The position numbers were made by a program, and so were the translations under genes. The notes below the pieces were generated by a model. That model was not told the origin of the DNA, did not search any database, and saw only the letters and a program-made list of their open reading frames with translations. From Diphasiastrum complanatum (lineage: Eukaryota > Streptophyta > Lycopodiopsida > Lycopodiales > Lycopodiaceae): 64,000 nt of DNA. The DNA lies in assembly GCA_029204225.1 (NCBI GenBank), contig CM055109.1:33573963-33637962 (forward strand). Direction: 5' to 3'. Of this stretch, positions 1 through 58,984 are shown piece after piece; within the stretch, counting starts at the first letter, position 1; every line of letters starts with the position of its first letter.

Positions 1-331
1 ATTGTACACCAATTGCATCATCACATTTAGAGCTTACATAAAATGTATATCAGATTAACTAGTATGGTTAACTTCAGACAATAGTTAGTTTAGCATGAGA
101 TGTAATAACTTCTTTATATGCTCGCTCCAAAGTTCGGGACTAGAGCTTTAAGACTGAAAATCTTGGTGTGCTGAATGCAAAAACTGAAGCGGGAGAGGCA
201 AAACTTTTGAAATCATTGTATGCTTATAGTGAAATATAAGGTGGGATGATTTTTCAATGCGATATAAACATTACAAAAATAATGAATGCTAGATCTATTC
301 ATATTGATTTATTGTAGGTAGATTCATTTAC
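1..331 (+). repeat. 5' flank of transposase-like copy A
   Basis: No long ORF is visible. The stretch is near-identical, inverted, to about 44787-45119, so the duplicated unit extends to or past the left edge of the window. It should hold the promoter side of the transposase-like gene. No TATA box or terminal inverted repeat could be assigned. Confidence 0.6.
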
Positions 332-2953
332 ATGATTGTAGCTTTAACAATGGCAATGTTCCATTTGCATGTTGCTCTTCCAATGGAATGCACTCCAATT
401 ATTAAGAAAAATGTGAAAGTTGTAGAGAATGTTGCAGTAATAATTAGAGAATTGAGAATGAATAATCATATGAATATAGATTTGTGAGTGGATGGATCAA
501 TTTATCCTAATCATCCAGCTACCAATTTGTGTCCAGATTTTAAGTCCATAACTCATCTTCTCAGATATGTATGTGAAGGAAATAGCGGATTACTTGGATA
601 TTGTCAAAGGTTGCATGATATTGGAATGCATAGCATTTCTTGTCTGAATCAACAATTACAGTTTGCTAATCAACACAAATCAACAATTGCTTCATTATGT
701 GCAACACACTAGTACTGAAAACAATGCACTCGAGAATGCTATGTACTCTTCGAGGATCAAACCAAGAAATGTTAGAATCCATGGAAAAGTTGCAATCTGA
801 GAGTTTAAAATCTGCCGTTGATCTAAAAGTTATCAGTAAGGCAATGATGAAGATGAAAAGAAAGAGAGTACCGATGAAGAATATTGATGACCTATCTACA
901 CATAGCGGCAATCAGAAAAAAAGAATCCGAGCATTCAAGTATGTTGTCATCTAAACTATTTATTTGATTTGTATATGTCATTGTTTGATTTGCACTTGAT
1001 AACATGAATTATTTATTTATTAAACATAATTTGAGTTTCATATGTTTGTTGCAGATCATGTTTGGTGGCAAAGAACTATCTAATAGATCGTTCATGCATT
1101 GGATCATCTTTAAGTCATGTTTTACCAAGAAAGTCAGCAAAGGAAATGATAAAAAATGCTCGGTTTGAAAAATTGAAAATGAAATTGTAATGACTATTTT
1201 GATTAAGGTTCAATTATATTTGGATGCGAATGTGATACAAGGTGCATGTGATGTATCTGGAATTAGCAGAAATGCTTATTCTACTTTTTTTAGAATAGTT
1301 AAAGAAGCTTTCTCCCAAGTGATGGTGAAGATAATTAATCTTCCACGTCCATATCGGGTAAAATTAGCTAGAAATTTTTATAATGACAGAATGTTCAAAG
1401 TAGTTGGCCAACCACTTCATATAACTGAATTATACAAATCAGAATATGGTGAGCTCAATTACAACGATTGCAATTATATTTTCCTTGATATTGAAAATGT
1501 TCTAAAATACATTATTCGATTCTATAAACTAGACGAACATCAAGTAAATGGAAAGATCATTATTGTAATAAAATTTGATGAATCTGAAATAATCAAGGGT
1601 TAGAAGTTGGAACGTGTGAGTGTCACTTTGATGAACAAAATTTCAGATATAGATGATTGAACGTTTAGTGTTCAATCGGAAAATTACATATGGTGGTTGG
1701 CGGCATTCCAGGTATACATTTCAATTTTCATTTAGAATATCTATATAAACGATTCATACCTTGCCAGTTTTTATTGACATGTCATGCATTACTTGTTTCT
1801 CTACAGGTCTTGAAAGAGAACCATAAAATACTATCATGGATAATTTCAAGAACAAATTATGGCAAGATTATAAAGAGACATTTGGAGGGTGAGAAATCTA
1901 CAATCGAAAACCATGGAGGTTTTTAAATTCAATGGCGGCTTGCAGGGGATTTGAAAACATTAAAATGTATGTATAATGTCTCGCATAGGGCAACATCAAA
2001 CCATCCATGTCTTTATTGCATGAAGGATTGCTACAATATGAATTTGGGACGATCAACAAACACTGGCTCAACACGAACAGCTGAAGATGCAAATATGAAA
2101 AGTGCTCTGCCAATTCCATTAAAATATGTTCACATATGCACATTGCATGCTGAGGTTCGTATTATTGAAAAACTAATTTACCTGCATATTCTACTAGCAT
2201 GGAATCAGAAACCAGAGCCAATGGCTAAAGCAACAATTAGGAGGTTGGAAATAGTTTTGTCAAATGCAGGACTACATAAAGGAAATGTCACGATTGAAAA
2301 CACTCTCCGGGAAAAAAAGGAAACATTCCTAATAAGCCATCAATTGGAGGTGCTAAAGCAAGAAGAATCCAATCACACATGCAAAGAATCAAGTGTCAGA
2401 TACGAAATATCGAAAGAAATTGTTCAAGCCACACGAACACTGGAAGGAAGTAATTGAGTAGAAAAGGGACAAGTGTGGACCAATTTAGACAAACTCATAA
2501 GTGTTATTAGGAAAGAAAACCTATCATCAGAAGATATGAGGATTTGCAAAATCATTGCACCACATTTGTAAAATATGTACATGATTGTTGGGAAAAACAC
2601 AACGTTACTCATTACATGGTCCTAATCTATATCATTATCTAGTAATTTTCTCATTCAGGCTTATATTTTTTTCTACTGATGTAACTAATCAAAACTATTG
2701 TTTGCAGGACATCCTTCTTCATCATGCAACTTATTTTGCAAAGGAATATGGGAGCTTAAGTATCTGGTCATCACAAGACATGGAAAAATCTCATTGGCAA
2801 GCAAGGGGAGCATTTCATAGAGCAACAAATCATGGAGGACACAATTCAAGAAATAAATATTTAGTTCAACTTTTTCAGTGGTTTTACAGAAGAGCACAAT
2901 TTAGATATCAAGCTAAAAACTCGCCAAGTATTACGATATTCCAGTTGGTTTGA
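332..2953 (+). pseudogene. Transposase-like multi-exon gene, copy A (decayed)
   Basis: Protein pieces follow in order: an N-terminal frame (332-712, broken by an in-frame TGA at 485-487), a Lys-rich piece (697-938), a piece starting at 1055, a central piece 1190-1603 ending FDESEIIKG, a piece around 1690-1926, and a piece 1951-2457. That last piece has HPCLYC and a Pro-Ile-Pro-Leu stretch followed by a Leu/Ile-rich helix. The last exon (2708-2950) has YGSLSIWSSQDMEKSHW. GT-AG introns fit at 939-1054, 1712-1806 and 2642-2707. In-frame stops lie at 485, 1601, 1658 and 1924, and frameshifts near 700, 1180 and 2460. The layout (acidic motif, a CxxC in a 'HPCxYC' context, late EKxxW) recalls large transposase-like proteins of animal and oomycete transposons; that assignment is inference. 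Copy B shares every stop, so decay preceded the duplication. Confidence 0.6.
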
Positions 2954-41310: not shown

Positions 41311-42105
41311 TTTTTGATGACCTTGAAAGTGAGATAGATTATGATGAAGATGATGATTGGAGATCTGGCAATGAGGCCTTGGAGGCCATGATTGAATAAT
41401 CTAAAGCCTATTAAAAAACTTTGCCTATAATGGAGGAATTTTTGGAATTTCAAAAAAGATATCCCCCTAGATCTAGATATAACCCCTCAGGAAATGTAGA
41501 GGCCATTGGAGGACATGACATCAACAGAACAAACGTCGTTGATTACGATGATTATGATATGGCAAGTAGATATTATATTGGTATTGATATTGTTCAACTT
41601 TCTTATTTCTTATTGGTATTGATATTGTTCAATTTTCTTATTGAGTTTGCAGTGTTATGTATCATTCTAAATTTATTTTCTTTTCTCGTTTACAGTATGC
41701 TATGAGGCATTTGAGGTGTATCAGCTGGGAGAAAAGATGTTTCTCTATCTAATTATTTGAAAAACTTTCAAAATAATGAGATTTGTATATATCATTCATC
41801 TTATAATCCATATGTAACCACTGTCATTATGACCATCAAATCATTATCAGTTTGTTTAGGAGGCCATAAGTACGCAAGAGAAACATATAAAATATTTTTT
41901 GTACAAGAGGGATTTGGCTATTAAGATATTGGGTTATACTCCCAATGAGACAACGAAAAGATCATCTACATTGGCCCTTTATTCGGGTTACATTGATATG
42001 AGCAAGAGGAAAAATTTAGAATTTTTGGATCCATATGAAAGGAGATTATTCCTTCATGACAATACCATCCGTCTGAATCTTGAAGAGGATGATGATGATA
42101 ATTAA
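41311..42105 (+). pseudogene. Unknown acidic protein gene fragments
   Basis: Coding-like pieces on the plus strand: DDLESEIDYDEDDDW at 41315, then (after two stops) MEEFLEFQKRYPPRSRYN, NVEAIGGHDINR and VVDYDDYDMA (41421-41560). After a gap come AIKILGYTPNET, YIDMSKRKNLEF, PYERRLFLHDN and an acidic end LEEDDDDN before a TAA at 42103. An end of this kind, closing on a natural stop, suggests the 3' half of a real gene. No family recognised. It converges on transposase copy B and is absent beside copy A, where the SPH-repeat cuts in. Confidence 0.4.
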
Positions 42106-42134
42106 ATACTTTTTTGTAATAGATTTTTGATATA

Positions 42135-44786
42135 TTACAAGGATCTCTCTTTTGTAATGAATTTGAATGCCTTTCGAAATATCGTAATACTTGGCGAGTT
42201 TTTAGCTTGATATCTAAATTGTGCTCTTCTGTAAAACCACTGAAAAAGTTGAACTAAATATTTATTTCTTGAATTGTGTCCTCCATGATTTGTTGTGCTA
42301 TGAAATGCTCCCCTTGCTTGCCAATGAGATTTTTCCATGTCTTGTGATGACCAGATACTTAAGCTCCCATATTCCTTTGCAAAATAAGTTGCATGATGAA
42401 GAAGGATGTCCTGCAAACAATAGTTTTGATTAGTTACATCAGTAGAAAAAAATATAAGCCTGAATGAGAAAATTACTAGATAATGATATAGATTAGGACC
42501 ATGTAATGAGTAACGTTGTGTTTTCCCCAACAATCATGTACATATTTTACAAATGTGGTGCAATGATTTTGCAAATCCTCATATCTTCTGATGATAGGTT
42601 TTCTTTCCTAATAACACTTATGAGTTTGTCTAAATTGGTCCACACTTGTCCCTTTTCCACTCAATTACTTCCTTCCAGTGTTCGTGTGGCTTGAACAATT
42701 TCTTTCGATATTTCGTATCTGACACTTGATTCTTTGCATGTGTGATTGGATTCTTCTTGCTTTAGCACCTCCAATTGATGGCTTATTAGGAATGTTTCTT
42801 TTTTTTCCCGGAGAGTGTTTTCAATCGTGACATTTCCTTTATGTAGTCCTGCATTTGACAAAACTATTTCCAACCTCCTAATTGTTGCTTTAGCCATTGG
42901 CTCTGGTTTCTGATTCCATGCTAGTAGAATATGCAGGTAAATTAGTTTTTCAATAATACGAACCTCAGCATGCAATGTGCATATGTGAACATATTTTAAT
43001 GGAATTGGCAGAGCACTTTTCATATTTGCATCTTCAGCTGCTCGTGTTGAGCCAGTGTTTGTTGATCGTTCCAAATTCATATTGTAGCAATCCTTCATGC
43101 AATAAAGACATGGATGCTTTGATGTTGCCCTGTGCGAGACATTATACATACATTTTATTGTTTTCAAATCTCCTGCAAGCCGCCATTGAATTTAAAAACT
43201 TCCATGGTTTTCGATTGTAGATTTCTCACCCTCCAAATGTCTCTTTATAATCTTGCCATAATTTGTTCTTGAAATTATCCATGATAGTATTTTATGGTTC
43301 TCTTTCAAGACCTGTAGAGAAACAAGTAATGCATGACATGTCAATAAAAACTGGCAAGGTATGAATCGTTTATATAGATATTCTAAATGAAAATTAAAAT
43401 GTATACTTGGAATGCCGCCAACCACCATATGTAATTTTCCGATTGAACACTAAACGTTCAATCATCTATATCTGAAAGTTTGTTCATCAAAGTGACACTC
43501 ACACGTTCCAACTTCTAACCCTTGATTATTTCAGATTCATCAAATTTTATTACAATAATGATCTTTCCATTTACTTGATGTTCGTCTAGTTTATAGAATC
43601 GAATAATGTATTTTAGAACATTTTCAATATCAAGGAAAATATTATTGCAATCGTTGTAATTGAGCTCACCATATTCTGATTTGTATAATTCAGTTATATG
43701 AAGTGGTTGGCCAACTACTTTGAACATTCTGTCATTATAAAAATTTCTAGCTAATTTTACCCGATATGGACGTGGAAGATTAATTATCTTCACCATCACT
43801 TGGGAGAAAGCTTCTTTAAATATTCTAAAAAAAGTAGAATAAGCATTTCTGCTAATTCCAGATACATCACATGCACCTTGTATCACATTCGCATACAAAT
43901 ATAATTGAACCTTAATCAAAATAGTCTCTACAATTTCATTTTCATTTTTTCAAACCGAGCATTTTTTATCATTTCCTTTGCTGACTTTCTTGGTAAAACA
44001 TGACTTAAAGATGATCCAATGCATGAACGATCTATTAGATAGTTCTTTGCCACCAAACATGATCTGCAACAAACATATGAAACTCAAATTATGTTTAATA
44101 AATAAATAATTCATGTTATCAAGTGCAAATCAAACAATGACATATACAAATCAAATAAACAGTTTAGATGACAACATACTTGAATGCTCGGATTCTTTTT
44201 TTCTGATTGCCGCTATGTGTAGATAGGTCATCAATATTCTTCATCGGTACTCTCTTTCTTTTCATCTTCATCATTGCCTTACTGATAACTTTTAGATCAA
44301 CGGCAGATTTTAAACTCTCGGATTGCAACTTTTCCATGGATTCTAACATTTCTTGGTTTGATCCTCGAAGAGTACATAGCATTCTCGAGTGCATTGTTTT
44401 CAGTACTAGTGTGTTGCACATAATGAAGCAATTGTTGATTTGTGTTGATTAGCAAACTGTAATTGTTGATTCAGACAAGAAATGCTATGCATTCCAATAT
44501 CATGCAACCTTTGACAATATCCAAGTAATCCGCTATTTCCTTCACATACATATCTGAGAAGATGAGTTATGGACTTAAAATCTGGACACAAATTGGTAGC
44601 TGGATGATTAGGATAAATTGATCCATCCACTCACAAATCTGTATTCATTTGATTATTCATTCTCAATTCTCTAATTATTACTGCAACATTCTCTACAACT
44701 TTCACATTTTTCTTAATAATTGGAGTGCATTCCATTGGAAGAGCAACATGCAAATGGAACATTGCCATTGTTAAAGCTACAATCAT
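42135..44786 (-). pseudogene. Transposase-like multi-exon gene, copy B (decayed)
   Basis: Inverted counterpart of 332-2953, beginning at ATG 44786. It shares the in-frame stops and frameshifts of copy A. Pieces: 44630-44406, 44421-44164, 43919-43515 (with FDESEIIKG), 43428-43192, 43167-42661 (with HPCLYC) and the last exon with YGSLSIWSSQDMEKSHW (about 42410-42170). Copy B extends about 40 bp further than A (frame ends RKAFKFITKERSL), so A lost its end to the SPH-repeat. Differences are mainly single substitutions (LDANV to LYANV; NHP to KHP), indicating a recent duplication. Confidence 0.6.
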
Positions 44787-45119
44787 GTAAATGAATCTAC
44801 CTACAATAAATCAATATGAATAGATCTAGCATTCATTATTTTTGTAATGTTTATATCGCATTGAAAAATCATCCCACCTTATATTTCACTATAAGCATAC
44901 AATGATTTCAAAAGTTTTGCCTCTCCCGCTTCAGTTTTTGCATTCAGCACACCAAGATTTTCAGTCTTAAAGCTCTAGTCCCGAATTTTGGAACGAGCAT
45001 ATAAAGAAGTTATTACATCTCATGCTAAACTAACTATTGTCTGAAGTTAACCATACTAGTTAATCTGATATATATTTTATGTAAGCTCTAAATGTGATGA
45101 TGCAATTGGTGTACAATTT
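44787..45119 (-). repeat. 5' flank of transposase-like copy B
   Basis: Inverted match to 1-331. Similarity ends with the window edge, so the full extent is unknown. Confidence 0.6.
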
Positions 45120-52330: not shown

Positions 52331-53880
52331 CGGGTCAAATCTGGTCCCCGTCTTATGTGTGTGGCAATGGGCCTATATTTGTAGTTGTGATCCTATTGAT
52401 ACAACATCCATCCCATGAAGAATTGTGGATCTCCCCATATCCGAAATACAAGCACATGAAGACATTGGTCACAATTCTACACTTACATATGGTAATTCTG
52501 CCTATAGCTGAAAAATGGTAATTCTGCCTATAGCTGAAAATTGTTTCTATCCAGATTACACAACCAACTAGAATCCGATTTGGCAACGGATCCATAAAGG
52601 TGTTAGGTAAATTGTGGTAAATGCTAATATACCAAAAGTTCCTATCAGTAGATTGTCATAGAACAAATAACAAAACTATAACAGATTAACCTGACATATC
52701 AAAATCTGACTAATAACCATTCACAAAGTGCAATGAAATTGAATAACATGATTGCATTCCACATCTCCGTTATTACAATACAATACAATAAAATGGCAGA
52801 GTATATCCATCACATAAACTAGAATTTCCATTACATCAAGGATCGTACCAAGGAAAAAGACATTACTCAAGTTACATTCCATCTTAACATTGAAATATAC
52901 ATGATTTGGACAGTGAAGGTAGTGACACAATTCTACACCAAAACTACTCGAAAGGTCTAAAGCAAGGCACTCCTACTTGCAGCCTACAGCTTGACATAAA
53001 CTTGTATCACAACTCACAGAATGCTCGGCTCTAACCCTTTTGACACTTGATCACACTTTTGCTATCCAGTGTAAAACCAAGAGTCCCCTTTGTGACTACA
53101 AGTTCCCTATTTATACAATCCTGAACTCACCGTTCCCACAACTCCGCAAAAGACCACCACTGTTTTGTATGTAGTTCTCTTGTAGTTGGTACAACTTCCA
53201 TTGCTAAGACCACATCAAGATTGCAATCGTCACACATGCGGTTTCTTCTGGTCCGTTCAACTTCCATTCCTCTTTACCCGCATATGATCTTTCCATTCTA
53301 AATCAACAACCCTAAAAACAATCTTTTTGGTGCTTTTTGTCCTATCTACACATTACTGAACACACCCTAGTCATCCCTATAGCAATTTACCCTAATCCAT
53401 CTACCTAACAACATTAATACGACTAGAGGTCTGAGCTCTTAAACAATCTTATACATACAAAATACCTTAAAATGGCCTATCTAATAGGGAAGTTGGCTTA
53501 TTTTGGCAACTCTAATAATGTTGTAGCAGACACAGTTGTAGGCGAAGTTATCTCACCCAAAACACTTCCAACTGGTGCCAATTCAAAATGTCATAATACA
53601 CGTAACAACAACTGATCCTTATCATTCACAAATCTTGACACCAAATGTGGTGTTCAACCGGTTAACATGATGTGATTCAAACATTGTTGGAGGGTTTACG
53701 GATATCGAGAAAACCTTAGCTAGATTATTCATTTATAAGTGAGAGGGATTTGACACCTGCGTGTGTAAGTCCAAGCCGATGATGAGATAGTTATTTGATT
53801 AGTTAAAAGCTAATAACATGACTTGAGGCCTTTTTGCGGCAATTAAATGTTGTTAGGCCTAATAGTCAAGCTAGTGAATA
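52331..53880. repeat. E-unit distal non-coding region, second copy
   Basis: Direct copy of 31346-32890, with a 27-bp tandem duplication near 52500 (TGGTAATTCTGCCTATAGCTGAAAA twice). Similarity ends near 53880. No gene is seen. Confidence 0.6.
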
Positions 53881-53884
53881 AAAA

Positions 53885-54134
53885 AATGCAGAATGGATAC
53901 CAAGAATATATCGAGAATATCAATGGATCTTGATGCATCCCTTTGCAAAAGACTCATTCCGAAACCGAAAAAGATCGGATGACATATAAAGAAGCTCTTG
54001 GAAAGGAAGGATAATGGATTTTAAAGTATCACCTGCCGGTCAATCTATCACGGAAGTTTTAGTTCAACATGCTTATCTTCACGATGAGCTCAACATTCAT
54101 GATCTGAATCCAAATGATGGAAGGAAATGCAACT
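53885..54134 (+). pseudogene. Unknown exon-like coding fragment
   Basis: One plus-strand frame runs AEWIPRIYREYQWILMHPFA, then RNRKRSDDI, one TAA, WKGRIMDFKVSPAGQSITEV, then LVQHAYLHDELNIHDLNPND and GRKCNC before GTAAGT at 54134. A single stop in over 80 codons and a donor at the end suggest a former exon. It lies beyond the 3' end of the CENH3-like/C48 gene on the opposite strand. No family recognised. Confidence 0.35.
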
Positions 54135-55160
54135 GTAAGTTTTTAGATTCAATTTCTTTAGATTTAGCATTTTATTTTGGGGAGATCTTCAGTCACTTCA
54201 ATTCCAAAGATCACTACAATCGACGCTTGCCCTTGTTGATGTCTCGTATATATTGGTTGTATTTTTTGTCTTCATTGCCTTGGTATGTATTGTCCTTGTC
54301 TTGGCATATTTGAATATGTTCAGAAAATGAACTGATGAAAGCTTTGTTGTAACAAAACTAAGTTTGTTGCATGTTTGGATTGGTCGTGGCAAAGATTCCA
54401 TCAGATCATCTTTCTGAACTTATCCAAAAAAAGACCATGGTAAAGGCAAGGCAGACCAAGGCTATGAAAAACAAACATGTCGAAAAACCATAGAAATTGA
54501 TGATGAATGAATCATAACCTGAATTAGTAACAGAAAAAAAAACAAGTCAGAACAACTATAGAAAAACTATAAATATATTTCTATTAAAAAATTTTGTACA
54601 TGTGTCTCATCCACATCATGTGAGACGAATATTTAATCAGTATCAACTATCTATGATATGAGTTTTCGATAACAAGATTCATTGTCTCCTACATGAAATG
54701 CACTATCTCCATTGGGGAGATCTTTCGTTACTTGAATTCCAGTGACTCTACAATCGATGCTTGCCCTTGTTGTATTTTTGGTCTTCATTGCCTTGGTCTG
54801 TATTGTCCTTTTCTTGGCATATTTGGACATGTTCAGATCATGATCTGATCAAAGCTGAGTTGCAACAAATCTAAGTGAACTAATGTTGCATGTTTGGATT
54901 GGTTGTGGCAAAGGCTCAATCAGATCATCATTCTGAACTTATCCAAAGAAGACCATGGTAAAGACAAGGCAGACCAAGGCTATGAAAAACAAACATGTTG
55001 AAAAACAGTACAAATTGAAGATGAATGAATCATAACTTGAATTGATAAGAGGAAAAAAAACAAGTAAGAACAACCATAGAGAAACTGTAAGTTTATTTCT
55101 ATTAAAGTTTTCAATACATGTTTCTCATCCACATCAAGTGAGACAAATATTTAATCAGTA
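54135..55160. repeat. Tandem partial duplications of the gene 3' end
   Basis: The segment after GGGGAGA(T/C)CTT occurs at 54178, 54714 and, as part of the last C48 exon, 55297. Units share CTTGCCCTTGTT, TTGGCATATTTG and GACCATGGTAAAG and end in the last exon plus 3' flank. The middle unit keeps a shortened last exon (about 54655-54730). So the 3' end of the minus-strand gene was copied about three times with unit lengths near 536 and 583 bp. Confidence 0.65.
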
Positions 55161-57124
55161 TCAACTATCTATGATCTCTAAATCCATTTCTCCAGTTGGA
55201 AGTAGCTTGGGTGGAGAACACTCGACCACTGCAATTGGATATGAATTTTCGATCACCAGCTTTATGGTCTCCTGCTTGAAGTGCATTATCTCCATTGGGG
55301 AGACCTTCGGGCATTTAAACTAAAAAAAAACATAAACACAGTTAAAGGTAATTAATTAAATATCAGATAATAGGAATTTGTATATGAAAAAAACAAAAAA
55401 ATAATTAAAAATAATTAAGCGAATATTACGCCTTCCAGATTTGGAAGTCCATCTTGTAATGCAAGCCAATTGAAAAAGTGTTTGGCATTGCATACAATAT
55501 ACCAACCACAGCTGACAGAATCAACCTGCTGGGAGGATGGTAGATCCAAATTGAACATTATGAGATATCAGATCAACGCGCAGGATGTAAGAATAAAATC
55601 TACAACGGAAACAAGCACGCGTCGAACTGATATCAAAAAAAAATTTAATTGAATACGAATCAGCGCTCACTTTATGAAAGTAAACCAATCAATAACTACA
55701 AGGGTGCATTGAACCGATATTGAAAAATTTATACCTCTGCATCAACCATTTTCAGCTTGGAATATGCTTTTGCATTTGGTACTGGAAAGAGTTCTAGTAT
55801 TTTTTGTATATAGTTCCTAGAAATTTTGTGTGTGTGTGTAATAGAGTTCATCTTTAAACAAATTGGATTACACAGACCCTCATCATTGATGTACAAGGAC
55901 AACACATATAAGCTACAATGATCACTAGAATCAAAAAACAATAAATTTATGAGAATCGATGTGAAATCAAAATTCATATAAAAAATTCAATAAAATAAAA
56001 TCAACACTTACTTTGTTATGTATGGCAACATGAGAATTGGAGTCCCCAGTCTGACGTATTGAAACATATCATCGTGCATACTTTTAAAATCAGGGAAATT
56101 AAATACAGTCATGAATTGAAGGGAAAACAATGGAACATCTATAAACAATGGGTTCTGGACAACCTCCATCTAGTACTGAATTGCCCCACCACCTAATGTC
56201 GCCTAGCATTTTATTCCTACTTTCTAATTCACCAGTATCTAAACTAGAAAGGGGGAGACCAACATTGGTCTTTGGCATCCTAAAACTGTATCAAGACCTA
56301 AACCTTTAAGATATGTGTTGAACAATTGGTCATACTGTACATATTGAGGAGTATTTACAAAGTCAAGTGTAGGGGGTGACAGAAGTAAAACTGATAAACC
56401 ACATAAAGATTTGTCATTCAAAATTGGTTCTACCTTTGCACTAAGAAAATCATCTGAATCACTTACAAGAACAGGAGGAGGGGAACTAATATTTATGGGT
56501 TTAGGATGAGGAGGAGATTTACAAGGTGGAGATTTATTAGGAGAGGAAGATTTAGCATGAGAAGTTAAAAATGGAGTGGAAGGAGAAGAATGCCTTGAAG
56601 AAAGAATAGTATTCAGAGGAGATGACTTGGAAAAATCCCTTGCTTTAGATAGAGGGTCAAGAGACCTCCTCTTCTTTGAAACACTCCCGTTCTGTATACG
56701 AATAACAAGCCAAGTTGGTTGCGATTCCTTTCGTTTTCTCCTCTCTGAATCTTGTTTTGGAGGAGATGAGGGAGCAGGTATTCAACAAACTTGTCATATG
56801 TGTCCCGAAGCCTGAACACAATTTTGAAATCCTTGGACATGATGGTCACCCTCTTGGCATGGACAGTTTGCAACAATAGTATCTGAAAAAAATTTCACCT
56901 GGAAATCCTCATATGCTGTGCAGCACCTCAATTGCCGTTACAGTCCATCTCACATATGCAAATAGACTTCTTGTAATGTCTCTGATGGATTTCTGTATGT
57001 GAGATTTTGGAATCAAAAGATTATTTGTCTTCTGAAACTTCCGAATATCTTTGAGCCAAGGTGCGTCTCTTCTTATGCCCCTTGGCCTAGGAGGTGGTGG
57101 TGGTGGACGAGGTGGGGATCCCAT
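55161..57124 (-). pseudogene. CENH3-like: CENH3-like histone fold plus Ulp1/C48-like protease module
   Basis: From ATG 57124: a short Pro-rich tail (MGSPPRPPPPPPRPRGIRRD), then the H3 fold: LKDIRKFQKTNNLLIP (alpha-N), IQKSIRDITRSLF (alpha-1), VRWTVTAIEVL (loop 1 and alpha-2), AYEDFQVKFFSD, then HAKRVTIMSKDFKIVFRL. RW in loop 1, FSD and KDF are typical of plant CENH3 rather than canonical H3. Two frameshifts lie inside the fold. Next comes an open frame (56781-56239), then protease exons ending at 56012, then 55924-55735, 55525-55430 and 55319-55161, joined by GT-AG introns. These read MLPYITNDHCSLYVL, KMNSI and VDSVSCGWYIVCNAKHFFNW: the His...Asp...Cys order of C48 proteases, with Asn at the Asp position. 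It ends at a TGA at 55161-55163. Joined, the last three exons stay in frame. Probably a pseudogene overall. Confidence 0.7.
56239..56781 (-). CDS. 180-codon Ser/Pro-rich open frame between the H3 fold and the protease
   Basis: The frame opens after a TGA at 56784-56782 and has no ATG at its start, so it is an internal exon or a frame-shifted continuation of the histone part. It starts IPAPSSPPKQDSERRKRK, continues with WLVIRIQNGSVSKKRRSLD, then a low-complexity Ser/Pro segment (SSPNKSPPCKSPPHPKP), an acidic spot (VSDSDDF) and a hydrophobic end (SLCGLSVLLLSPPTLDF). RKRK and KKRR look like nuclear localisation signals. A shifted frame (PKTNVGLPLSSLDTGELES) carries on toward the protease exons. 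No family recognised. Confidence 0.45.
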   Translation of the reverse strand: MPAPSSPPKQDSERRKRKESQPTWLVIRIQNGSVSKKRRSLDPLSKARDFSKSSPLNTILSSRHSSPSTPFLTSHAKSSSPNKSPPCKSPPHPKPINISSPPPVLVSDSDDFLSAKVEPILNDKSLCGLSVLLLSPPTLDFVNTPQYVQYDQLFNTYLKGLGLDTVLGCQRPMLVSPFLV

Positions 57125-57532
57125 GTAAAAGTTAGAACTTTATTTCAATAGGCCAAGGCTATTATGGGCTTTACCGCATAATGCCCTCTAGCATGAGGAT
57201 GCATGCAATTGTGATTGATTCTGATTAAATCATAACAATAGTAAACATGCATAGTTTAATCATTATACTAGTGTAAAGAACACAAGTAAACACTAAGAAA
57301 TATAAATTATTTGATGTACTTTTCTCACTAATGGCTAACGTAGCAGGAACTAAGAATTAGTGCTTTCTAATTCGAATACTCCCGCTGGAACTGGTTTTAG
57401 GGGGAATTACTCATTTGGAATTTAGGCACCGTCGCTTTTGGCTTGAAATTTTTCTACTCCAGGCTAATGTCGTCTCTAGTGTCTTTATAAATCAAGTACA
57501 AAAAGGTAAAGCACGCTCTCTTGTCTGTCTGT

Positions 57533-57726
<194 letters not shown>

Positions 57727-58984
57727 TATGGCGATCATTCACTTATTCTCTATGTTTGCCACCTTGTTTCTACTTCAGGTGTCTTTAGCTTCGTCTCTAG
57801 ACGCTTCCTTTAGCGTAACAAACCTATGTGATGATTTCATAACAGCGAGTTGTTCAGATGGGACTAAATCTTTGGGCGTCCATGTGGTGCGCAGTGGTCT
57901 CCGTTGGTCGTATAATTTCACTGCAACTGAACAAACCGAATATATCTGTGATTTCACAAGAAGGGAGGGCATTACATTGCAGGCAGCCAACCTGCAGATA
58001 TGGACTTGGAAATTGAACTTGGACGTAAGGCTAAACCTTCTTTCTCCGCTAATTCTTTTGATTGCATAGCTAAAGTGTCATGGTCTGAGACTTGCTCGTG
58101 ATTTTGGAATATTAAATTACAGATTGCAAAAATCTAAAATGAATGCGCATTCCCTCGTTTGCCACGCAAGGACCTCTGAAGCTCCGCTGGCACAGTCATT
58201 GCTGGCTTCCACTGGACATTCGTGCTCCTGAACTCTCGATGTACAGCTCAGGACTTCTTCCTGTCTTGCTGTCCAGCATCCTATTTACGCCTCCTAAGTT
58301 GCCTCCCTAGCTGTAAGTTGCCTGTGTCATTGAAGCTTATAATCCCAGCGTTCAGTCGATGCGTTTAACAAAGTGTGGCTCCCTTTTTTCACTCAGCCGC
58401 TGTGTTGTCATTCCACCCAGAAGTCAGGTAATGTCCACATCCCCAAGACGTCTTAATTAGGTAAGTATGTCTTGCGATTGTTACACGTGCAATCTGCAGG
58501 ATAATGGTATGTGTTTGCTTTTCGATTCTAGCATGGACTTGGACTTAGCATAAAACAAATAGAAAATCCGCTGCTGCAACTTGCATCAAGTAAAGGATTT
58601 TTAGCCAGAGAAACCTAATACAAGAATAGACATGGTCTGTCTGAAGTGTGCTACTAACTTGTCGTGCTCTTAATTTCTATATGTTTATAGATTGACATCT
58701 TTTGCAATCTAAGTTATGATAAAATTAGAATCTATAAAACCTTGGCAATACAGAAATGTCAATGGAGGTTGGAGAATGTCTACGTTGTTATGAGCATCTA
58801 TTTGCATATATGACCTCAAAACTTATCGTTTTCTTGCTACCTTTCACAGCATGAAGGAAATCCGAATCTAGACTGGGTTGTCAAACCAACTGAATCTGGT
58901 TACTATACAAAAACGGTAGGGAGGAGGCTTTGTGCCTTGGATGTGATACACAAGTCGATTGTTGACGATGCAAAGGTGATCTTC
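57727..58984 (+). pseudogene. S1-family secreted protein, copy 3 (best preserved)
   Basis: ATG at 57727: MAIIHLFSMFATLFLLQ signal peptide, cleavage probably after SLASSLDA, then FSVTNLCDDFITASC, SLGVHVVRSGLRWSYNF, TEYICDF. The first frame runs to 58069 but after CDF the sequence (EGITLQAANLQIWTWKL) does not resemble S1. A later exon-like stretch (58852-58984) after TTTCACAG encodes HEGNPNLDWVVKPTESGYY and CALDVIHKSIVDDAKVIFN and is open in this copy only. S1 genes usually have no introns and about 130-150 residues, so an intron-containing or fused derivative is possible. The secreted role (pollen-pistil or other signalling) is family knowledge. Confidence 0.65.

Follow-up and report, generated by a model that had tools for sequence, protein, structure and literature searches.

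The window analysed here is a stretch of 64,000 nucleotides from the lycopod Diphasiastrum complanatum (GenBank assembly GCA_029204225.1, contig CM055109.1, positions 33,573,963 to 33,637,962 of the forward strand). Judged by its sequence, the minus-strand segment between positions 53880 and 57115 belongs to an old mobile-element family of high copy number and is a truncated, dead member of it. The better copies of this element probably encode a single protein in which a histone H3-like fold is joined to a cysteine protease of the C48 (Ulp1/SENP) type.

An earlier note, made from the letters of the window alone, had described a fold like that of the plant centromeric histone CENH3 joined to a C48-like module, and had explained it by capture of a CENH3 copy by a mobile element or by fusion of two genes through rearrangement. 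The motifs on which it relied (NLLIPKS, VRW, FFSDT and SKDF for the histone, then HCSLYVL and SVSCGWYIV for the protease) are found on the minus strand, in that order and within the interval given. The joining of the two modules holds for the better copies, where both belong to one gene, but the window copy is truncated and broken in frame. A repeat of mobile-element type does carry both modules, which stand together in copies elsewhere. By contrast, a single capture, fusion or one-off rearrangement at this locus was rejected in view of the collinear copies, of 1,745 places bearing the histone signature and of at least three subfamilies in what is an old family.

The histone-C48 gene

In the better copies, exon 1 starts with M-(A/V)-(R/Q)-T-K-Q-T-(A/T)-R and continues with a proline-rich stretch, the H3 fold, a linker rich in serine, proline and lysine, and then the protease's first half. 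The block N-D-H-W-S-L-Y-V-L lies in exon 2 and Q-Q-V-D-S-V-S-C-G-W-Y in exon 3, and a last exon follows. Read together, these exons would encode one protein composed of an H3-type N-terminus, a proline-rich stretch, an H3 fold, a Ser/Pro linker and a Ulp1/SENP-type cysteine protease. Copies are designated below by locus (L) and contigs by C. The Pfam Histone profile matched an open reading frame (ORF) of 417 amino acids in L033 at 3.1e-20 (73 bits, against a cut-off of 26.4) and one of 427 amino acids in L032 at 3.5e-14. The best match in the PDB to 146 residues of the L033 ORF was a histone H3 variant (5.3e-19, residues 1-131).

The H3-type start A-R-T-K-Q-T-A-R, in many cases altered at single positions, is found in subfamilies 1 and 3 and is missing from the truncated window copy. 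The N-terminus reads M-D-R-R-K-Q-T-R-R in subfamily 2 and M-A-R-T-K-Q-T-A-R-L in subfamily 3. Beyond this start, the proline-rich stretch takes the place of the H3 tail. At tail position 9, lysine was found in none of 36 readable loci (15 of L011-L027, 16 of L029-L048 and 5 of L049-L053, repeat places being dropped and some loci being near-identical assembly copies); the residue is mostly G, otherwise V, S, L, D or E. Copies found through the K-Q-T pattern are not usable for judging the conservation of K4, and outside that set the K4 position is E in three closely related copies, L011-L013.

For the protease, PF02902 (Pfam C48) scored above its cut-off in subfamilies 2 (1.3e-6) and 3 (2.6e-5), and gave no detection in subfamily 1, which includes the window copy. 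A profile of five protease modules matched the catalytic domain of SENP2 at 3.2e-7, covering most of the domain, and the His-Trp, Gln and Cys blocks fit in the alignment. In the five rows, which represent three subfamilies, His-Trp, Gln-Gln and Gly-Trp are invariant and the Cys is kept in four.

The window copy

The histone fold of the window copy is split over three reading frames and nowhere contiguous, so that this copy encodes no intact fusion. It is truncated 5' at about 57,115, upstream of the proline-rich stretch, and 3' at about 53,880; since it is cut off at about 57,115, the ATG at 57,123 is flanking DNA. As to the GT-AG introns of the earlier note, both GT donors (at 56,011 and 55,734) and the terminal AG of intron 1 are present, but intron 2 ends in CTACCA, where most relatives have CTGCAG, and an AG follows in frame 9 bases later. 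L003, on contig C19, is 99.9% identical to the window copy over 3.26 kb, flank included, which indicates that the window copy was later duplicated along with its surroundings. The parts of the copy are as follows (HMM, hidden Markov model).

53880..57115, minus strand: whole homologous stretch of the window copy, a truncated element fragment (blastn of family copies L030, L034, L036 and L044 against the window; L002, L004 and L005 are 98-99% identical over about 2.9 kb)
56912..57115, minus strand: H3-like fold, part 1, with a proline-rich lead and then NLLIPKS ... VRW (family HMM 7.7e-26 for the ORF at 56912-57139; Pfam Histone 5.3e-5, under cut-off)
56797..56937, minus strand: fold part 2, an ORF in a second frame with AYEDFQVKFFSDTIVA (family HMM 4.1e-5)
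56616..56894, minus strand: fold part 3, an ORF in a third frame with TVHAKRVTIMSKDFKIVFRLRDTYDKF (family HMM 2.8e-13; Pfam Histone 0.0034, under cut-off)
56242..56781, minus strand: Ser/Pro/Lys-rich linker ORF of 180 amino acids, a linker common to the relatives
56011..56290, minus strand: final part of exon 1, which in two frames holds the N-terminal half of the C48-like domain (family HMM 2.8e-10 and 1.8e-6)
55925..56011, minus strand: intron 1, GT-AG (alignment with relatives)
55735..55924, minus strand: exon 2, His block DHCSLYVLSLY (relatives DHWSLYVLSLY) and KMNS at the place of SENP2 LDS (family HMM 1.2e-29; tblastn 5.7e-36; profile alignment to SENP2)
55430..55537, minus strand: exon 3, QQVDSVSCGWYIV, Gln and catalytic Cys block (family HMM 6.3e-17; tblastn)
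55161..55319, minus strand: last exon, FKCPKVSPMEIMHFKQETIKL...EIIDS and stop, with AG before it (ORF; exon also in relatives)
54177..55321, minus strand: two to three tandemly repeated, diverged units of about 520-580 bp within the non-coding 3' part of the element (repeat search; off-diagonal matches inside relatives)

The profile check proposed in the earlier note was answered in part. Pfam Histone matched two pieces of the window copy, at 5.3e-5 and 0.0034, both below the curated cut-off, and PF02902 did not detect the window copy's own protease pieces. Among the 2,018 ORFs of the window (the assembly has 5,176 contigs and a total of 1.74 Gb), family HMMs built without the window copy, on the other hand, matched three ORFs for the histone (7.7e-26, 2.8e-13 and 4.1e-5) and further ones for the protease (1.2e-29, 6.3e-17 and 2.8e-10). 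HMMs built from the two distant subfamilies alone still matched the window at 2.1e-14 (histone) and 1.3e-10 (C48), and the best match of the four HMMs in a reversed-window control was 0.034.

Copies across the genome

When the His-block exon was used as query, 152 genome matches were obtained, four of them at 100%, the window itself among them. With the first histone piece, many of the best 150 of 5,071 candidates, which were scored, lie in open frames of 200-430 amino acids. KRVTIMPKDF, in any codons, has 1,745 exact places in the genome (control 0); canonical H3 reads KDI where this signature reads KDF, as was also seen in the PDB H3 match. The protease signature QQ(V/N)DS(V/F)SCGWY has 774 exact places (control 0).

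The two modules repeatedly stand together. Among the stretches fetched through a protease exon, window excluded, the histone was also present in six of seven (L007 being the exception). Conversely, protease exons were found in 18 of 20 10-kb stretches fetched through the histone, on the same strand and 0.7-1.2 kb downstream, L039 and L048 being the exceptions; nine of these 20 had been chosen knowing of an adjacent protease match, and the protease was present in nine of the other 11. The search for further two-module copies, which the earlier note had advised, consequently gave the opposite of modules always found apart, the outcome that it held would speak for a chance neighbour. Order and spacing were read from three hand-typed lists (histone, protease, and gene A, a neighbouring gene described below), each of 150 places, with the window copy and near-identical assembly duplicates included. 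Among the places listed, there are at least 19 same-strand pairs with the protease within 3 kb after the histone (median 1,180 bp) and one opposite-strand pair, at least 15 pairs with the histone within 12 kb after gene A (median 3,720 bp), and at least 17 with the protease within 12 kb after gene A; the reverse order occurs zero times on the same strand and once on opposite strands. On contig C1, which has 95 histone places and 38 protease places, nine of the latter follow one of the former at a distance of 986-1,410 bp, where the wrong order gives 0 and chance 0.03. Most exact signatures have no exact partner signature adjoining. Such lone signatures are expected from copy decay, and single-module copies may also exist.

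An Arabidopsis CENH3 fold was also used as a genome query. It found 13 places at 59%, with the look of H3 genes, followed by 137 places at 47-56% in frames of up to 434 amino acids. Five of the latter were fetched; four belong to subfamily 2 (L049-L051 and L053) and one to subfamily 3 (L052), and C48 blocks lie downstream of the fold in all five. By these sequences, the family is old and comprises at least three subfamilies with both modules in one gene. The 13 intronless H3-like places, with near-equal scores against this query, lie on C11 (nine, at about 30.7-31.0 and 50.4-51.8 Mb), C5 (three) and C23 (one), and are presumably canonical H3 genes. The host's own CENH3 gene was not identified by this search and is presumably split by introns.

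The element around the gene

Homology among the copies runs past the histone-C48 gene on both sides, and the better copies share a fixed gene order: gene A (plus), gene B (minus), the histone-C48 gene (plus) and gene D (minus). Within the 20 fetched stretches, gene A was seen in 6 (most stretches end before it), gene B in 14 and gene D in 10; genes B and D are always on the minus strand where found, in L045 also on the plus strand. Gene A as present in the window contains K-F-D-E-S, A-G-D-L-K and S-Q-D-M-E-K-S-H-W (S-Q-G-M-E in others), a motif order that suggests a D-D-E transposase. Matches of genes A, B and D to BLYB (0.0056 and 0.014) and KshA_C (0.036) were below cut-off and taken as chance.

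A right terminus ending near CCCCTAAT is common to eight stretches, and the flanks differ beyond it. Its 44 bases were found at 922 genome places with up to 3 mismatches (control 0). A shorter version of 18 bases has 566 places, with one inward pair within 20 kb among 100 listed. The window holds no copy of this terminus. Copy number, dispersal, the shared terminus and the collinear genes together point to mobility, and the histone-C48 gene would be an old accessory gene of this multi-gene element.

Known transposase families were sought in the same stretches, in which the region more than about 4 kb 5' of the histone gene is seen in few copies only. For PF10551 (MULE transposase, from Mutator-like elements), all 99 candidates were scored and gave 32 genome places, none of them, by eye, inside the 20 fetched 10-kb stretches; nor, again by eye, did any of the 150 candidates scored out of 1,332 for PF14214 (Helitron_like_N) fall inside them. 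KDZ (PF18758) had no match in the host genome and none in the control genomes either. The Helitron_like_N domain itself is abundant in the host genome (1,332 candidates), and one such domain, at C19:33997427, belongs to an open frame 3,591 amino acids long. Coding sequence that by eye looks copia-like was noticed beside or inside element copies (L035 94-600 and L033 7350-9999).

Signs of selection and points against

Past purifying selection has good support for the protease blocks from codon comparisons, and more caution is due for the histone fold. In subfamily 1, 16 uninterrupted folds gave a mean nonsynonymous divergence (dN) of 0.078 and a synonymous divergence (dS) of 0.247, a ratio of 0.31 with dN below dS in 115 of 120 pairs, and in subfamily 2 four folds gave 0.11 (six of six pairs); both ratios are biased downwards, the folds having been picked by protein similarity over the same region and required to be uninterrupted. 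A first count for exon 2 (0.28, 28 of 28 pairs) was biased, all eight copies having come from the exon-2 search list. Exon 2 was for this reason recounted over its first 30 codons on eight copies not picked by exon 2, with a pooled ratio of nonsynonymous to synonymous differences (pN/pS) of 0.23 and 26 of 28 pairs in the same direction. Exon 3, which was never a query, gave 0.36 (four copies, six of six pairs).

Several points weigh against an element that encodes a constrained histone-protease protein. The biases just given are among them, together with the 100 codons before donor 1, where the ratio is 0.59 against 0.68 in the frame +1 control. Many copies are broken: an uninterrupted fold was seen in 25 of 44 stretches (22 of 40 distinct places), few copies have a whole open gene, and none of the fetched stretches holds a copy open through all four exons. 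In the protease, the profile alignment sets the Asn of K-M-N, invariant in the five rows, against the catalytic Asp of SENP2, and exon 2 of the window copy has His-Cys for His-Trp; because of these two replacements, protease activity is uncertain. As for the element, Pfam searches with genes A, B and D gave nothing above cut-off, and hence no Pfam transposase. Neither a left end matching the right terminus nor a terminal inverted repeat (TIR) was found in the fetched stretches, which did not reach the left end.

Ancestry of the histone fold

The histone fold is H3-like, and its sequences leave an origin from H3 or from CENH3 undecided. A tree was built from 22 rows and 97 columns (12 element folds, four H3 and six CENP-A/CENH3). 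All 12 element folds fall into one clade (98/94*) and the four H3 rows into another (98/97*); the six CENP-A/CENH3 rows do not group as one. A phylogeny, as advised in the earlier note, thus supports the unity of the element folds and gives them no firm placement relative to H3 and CENH3.

Resemblance to canonical H3 extends over the tail start, the whole fold and the segment KRVTIMPKD. The element fold differs from H3 in two residues missing before alpha-N and in a W at the start of alpha-N, and the protein differs in the lack of K9, the proline-rich tail and a C-terminal extension of several hundred residues. The two residues are missing in all 12 element folds and likewise in the alignment in human CENP-A, which also has W-L before IRK.

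The reading of the earlier note as plant CENH3 was not established. In this alternative, which we consider rather unlikely, the element acquired its fold from the host's CENH3, not from H3, and gains access to centromeric chromatin through it. LLIP, RW (subfamilies 1 and 3), FSD (subfamily 1) and KDF (subfamilies 1 and 2) resemble plant CENH3, the best tree joins the elements with plant CENH3 (77/93), and elements and CENP-A rows stand together opposite the H3 clade (98/97*). However, the grouping with CENH3 is unstarred, a grouping with canonical H3 is not rejected (p-AU, from the approximately unbiased test, 0.161), the 97 columns are poor in signal, and convergence may explain several of the shared features. 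Furthermore, subfamilies 1 and 3 have the H3-type tail start and a loop 1 of canonical H3 length, where the CENH3/CENP-A references have 1-6 extra residues; subfamily 2 has one extra residue, as in rice CENH3. HAKRVTIMPKD is as in H3, and the fused protease is a further difference from CENH3.

Comparison with known systems

Among described systems, the closest in outline are KIU and VANC-Ulp1 of the VANDAL-type non-TIR MULEs, known from Arabidopsis and with similar genes in melon, rice and grapevine (PMC13317346, PMC5735166). Like the element described here, these are plant multi-gene DNA elements with one long-conserved accessory gene carrying an Ulp1 domain. The function of the KIU Ulp1 domain is given as unknown in a review (PMC13317346), and the target-site duplication of VANDAL/MULE elements is put at 8-11 bp in another source (PMC6446971). 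VANC is described with DUF1985 and DUF287 (PMC5735166), in place of which the present protein has an N-terminal H3 fold. The VANDAL/MULE transposase PF10551, moreover, was not seen in the 20 fetched stretches, and the element may be likened to the VANC/VANDAL model at most by analogy. Tandem repeats are reported as VANC targets (PMC5735166); tandem units of about 520-580 bp lie in the 3' part of the element at 54177-55321 of the window.

The protease resembles SENP2/Ulp1 (peptidase C48) over most of the catalytic domain and in its His-Trp, Gln and Cys blocks, and differs from it in the Asn at the catalytic Asp place and in its fusion to a histone fold. Ulp1 is likewise carried by DNA transposons of the Ginger1 and Mutator kinds, but in Ginger1 the domain is on the transposase itself (PMC2836005); the word 'histone' is absent from the text of that paper. 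In the open-licence PMC literature, as far as titles and the starts of abstracts reveal, no description of a transposon-encoded histone H3 was found, nor an earlier one of an H3 fold combined with a SUMO protease.

Possible role and alternative explanations

The histone-C48 protein could be an accessory factor acting on chromatin in trans. Residues that in H3 serve H3-H3' and DNA contact (R83, H113, K115, R116, T118, D123 and R129) are kept, and for this reason the fold may enter nucleosomes or bind H3 chaperones and so bring the protease to chromatin. At element copies, the protease would then remove SUMO or a relative of it from proteins of silencing or repair, and the protein would help these copies against silencing or in insertion. 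A tail without K9 could not itself bear H3K9 methylation, the mark that silences plant transposons. The net effect would resemble that of VANC in VANDAL elements, with a histone in place of a sequence-specific DNA binder. This mechanism as a whole is tentative, with the balance leaning against it. Its most specific form, in which a lineage of plant DNA transposons has evolved an H3 variant of its own, without K9 and fused to a SUMO protease, that is placed in nucleosomes at element copies and makes their chromatin unmarkable by H3K9 methylation and locally deSUMOylated (an anti-silencing histone), is doubtful.

An equally doubtful alternative makes the protein a decoy, whose fold, at the element, would poison or sequester nucleosome assembly or the chaperones of H3 while the protease is limited to self-processing. 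The proline-rich stretch in place of the remaining H3 tail and the Asn where the catalytic Asp is expected would suit it, but the invariant His-Trp, Gln-Gln and Gly-Trp of three subfamilies (five rows, Cys in four) and the constraint on exons 2 and 3 speak against it.

Two further alternatives concern the nature of the repeat. Some large DNA viruses and Polinton-like elements carry cysteine proteases of this clan, and a remnant of such an endogenous virus or element would account for several genes on both strands, a protease and no recognised transposase. It is nevertheless improbable: gene A appears to have D-D-E-like motifs, and two scans of viral contigs, which find close relatives only, gave no related locus. 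Still less probable is a dispersed, non-mobile host family of histone-protease genes spread by segmental duplication. Signs of purifying selection, the duplicated region in which the window lies and the flank shared with L003 at 99.9% would be expected of it, whereas copies on many contigs, 1,745 signature places, a terminus at 922 places with flanks differing after it in the eight stretches seen, and collinear genes A, B and D would not. The idea of chance neighbours, a CENH3 or H3 pseudogene beside an unrelated C48 transposon fragment, would suit the broken frames of this copy and the many duplicated repeats of the window. It was rejected with hardly any doubt left, as both modules recur elsewhere with the same order and spacing (at least 19 ordered pairs among the places listed; nine of 38 on contig C1) and in three subfamilies.

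A mobile element whose better copies encode a histone-protease protein thus remains the preferred reading. That transposons pick up pieces of genes was already known, as was the presence of Ulp1 domains in those of plants. A constrained H3 fold in an element's own protein, kept in at least three divergent subfamilies, would, if true, be a direct route for a selfish element onto nucleosomes. It opens the testable question of whether elements evade H3K9-based silencing, or reach special chromatin, by means of their own histone. It also calls for caution, as searches for H3 or CENH3 in such genomes can yield thousands of element-derived matches.

Other features of the window

Two further fragments of the same element family lie in the window.

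1607..2940, plus strand: copy of the element's left part with gene A, transposase-like by motif (blastn/tblastn)
41315..43511, minus strand: second left-part copy, with gene A and, on the opposite strand, the end of gene B (blastn/tblastn)

A 2.9-kb inverted repeat with 99% identity relates window positions 1-2940 to 42178-45117, each side with gene A, and the window is a mosaic of inverted and duplicated segments. At 57728-58066, behind a long (CT)n run, an ORF resembles the plant self-incompatibility protein S1 (PF05938 at 9e-4, below cut-off). Stretches related to it occur at 3.1-4.4 kb and 39-40.5 kb, and parts of 57.2-58.8 kb are repeated in inverted orientation elsewhere in the window.

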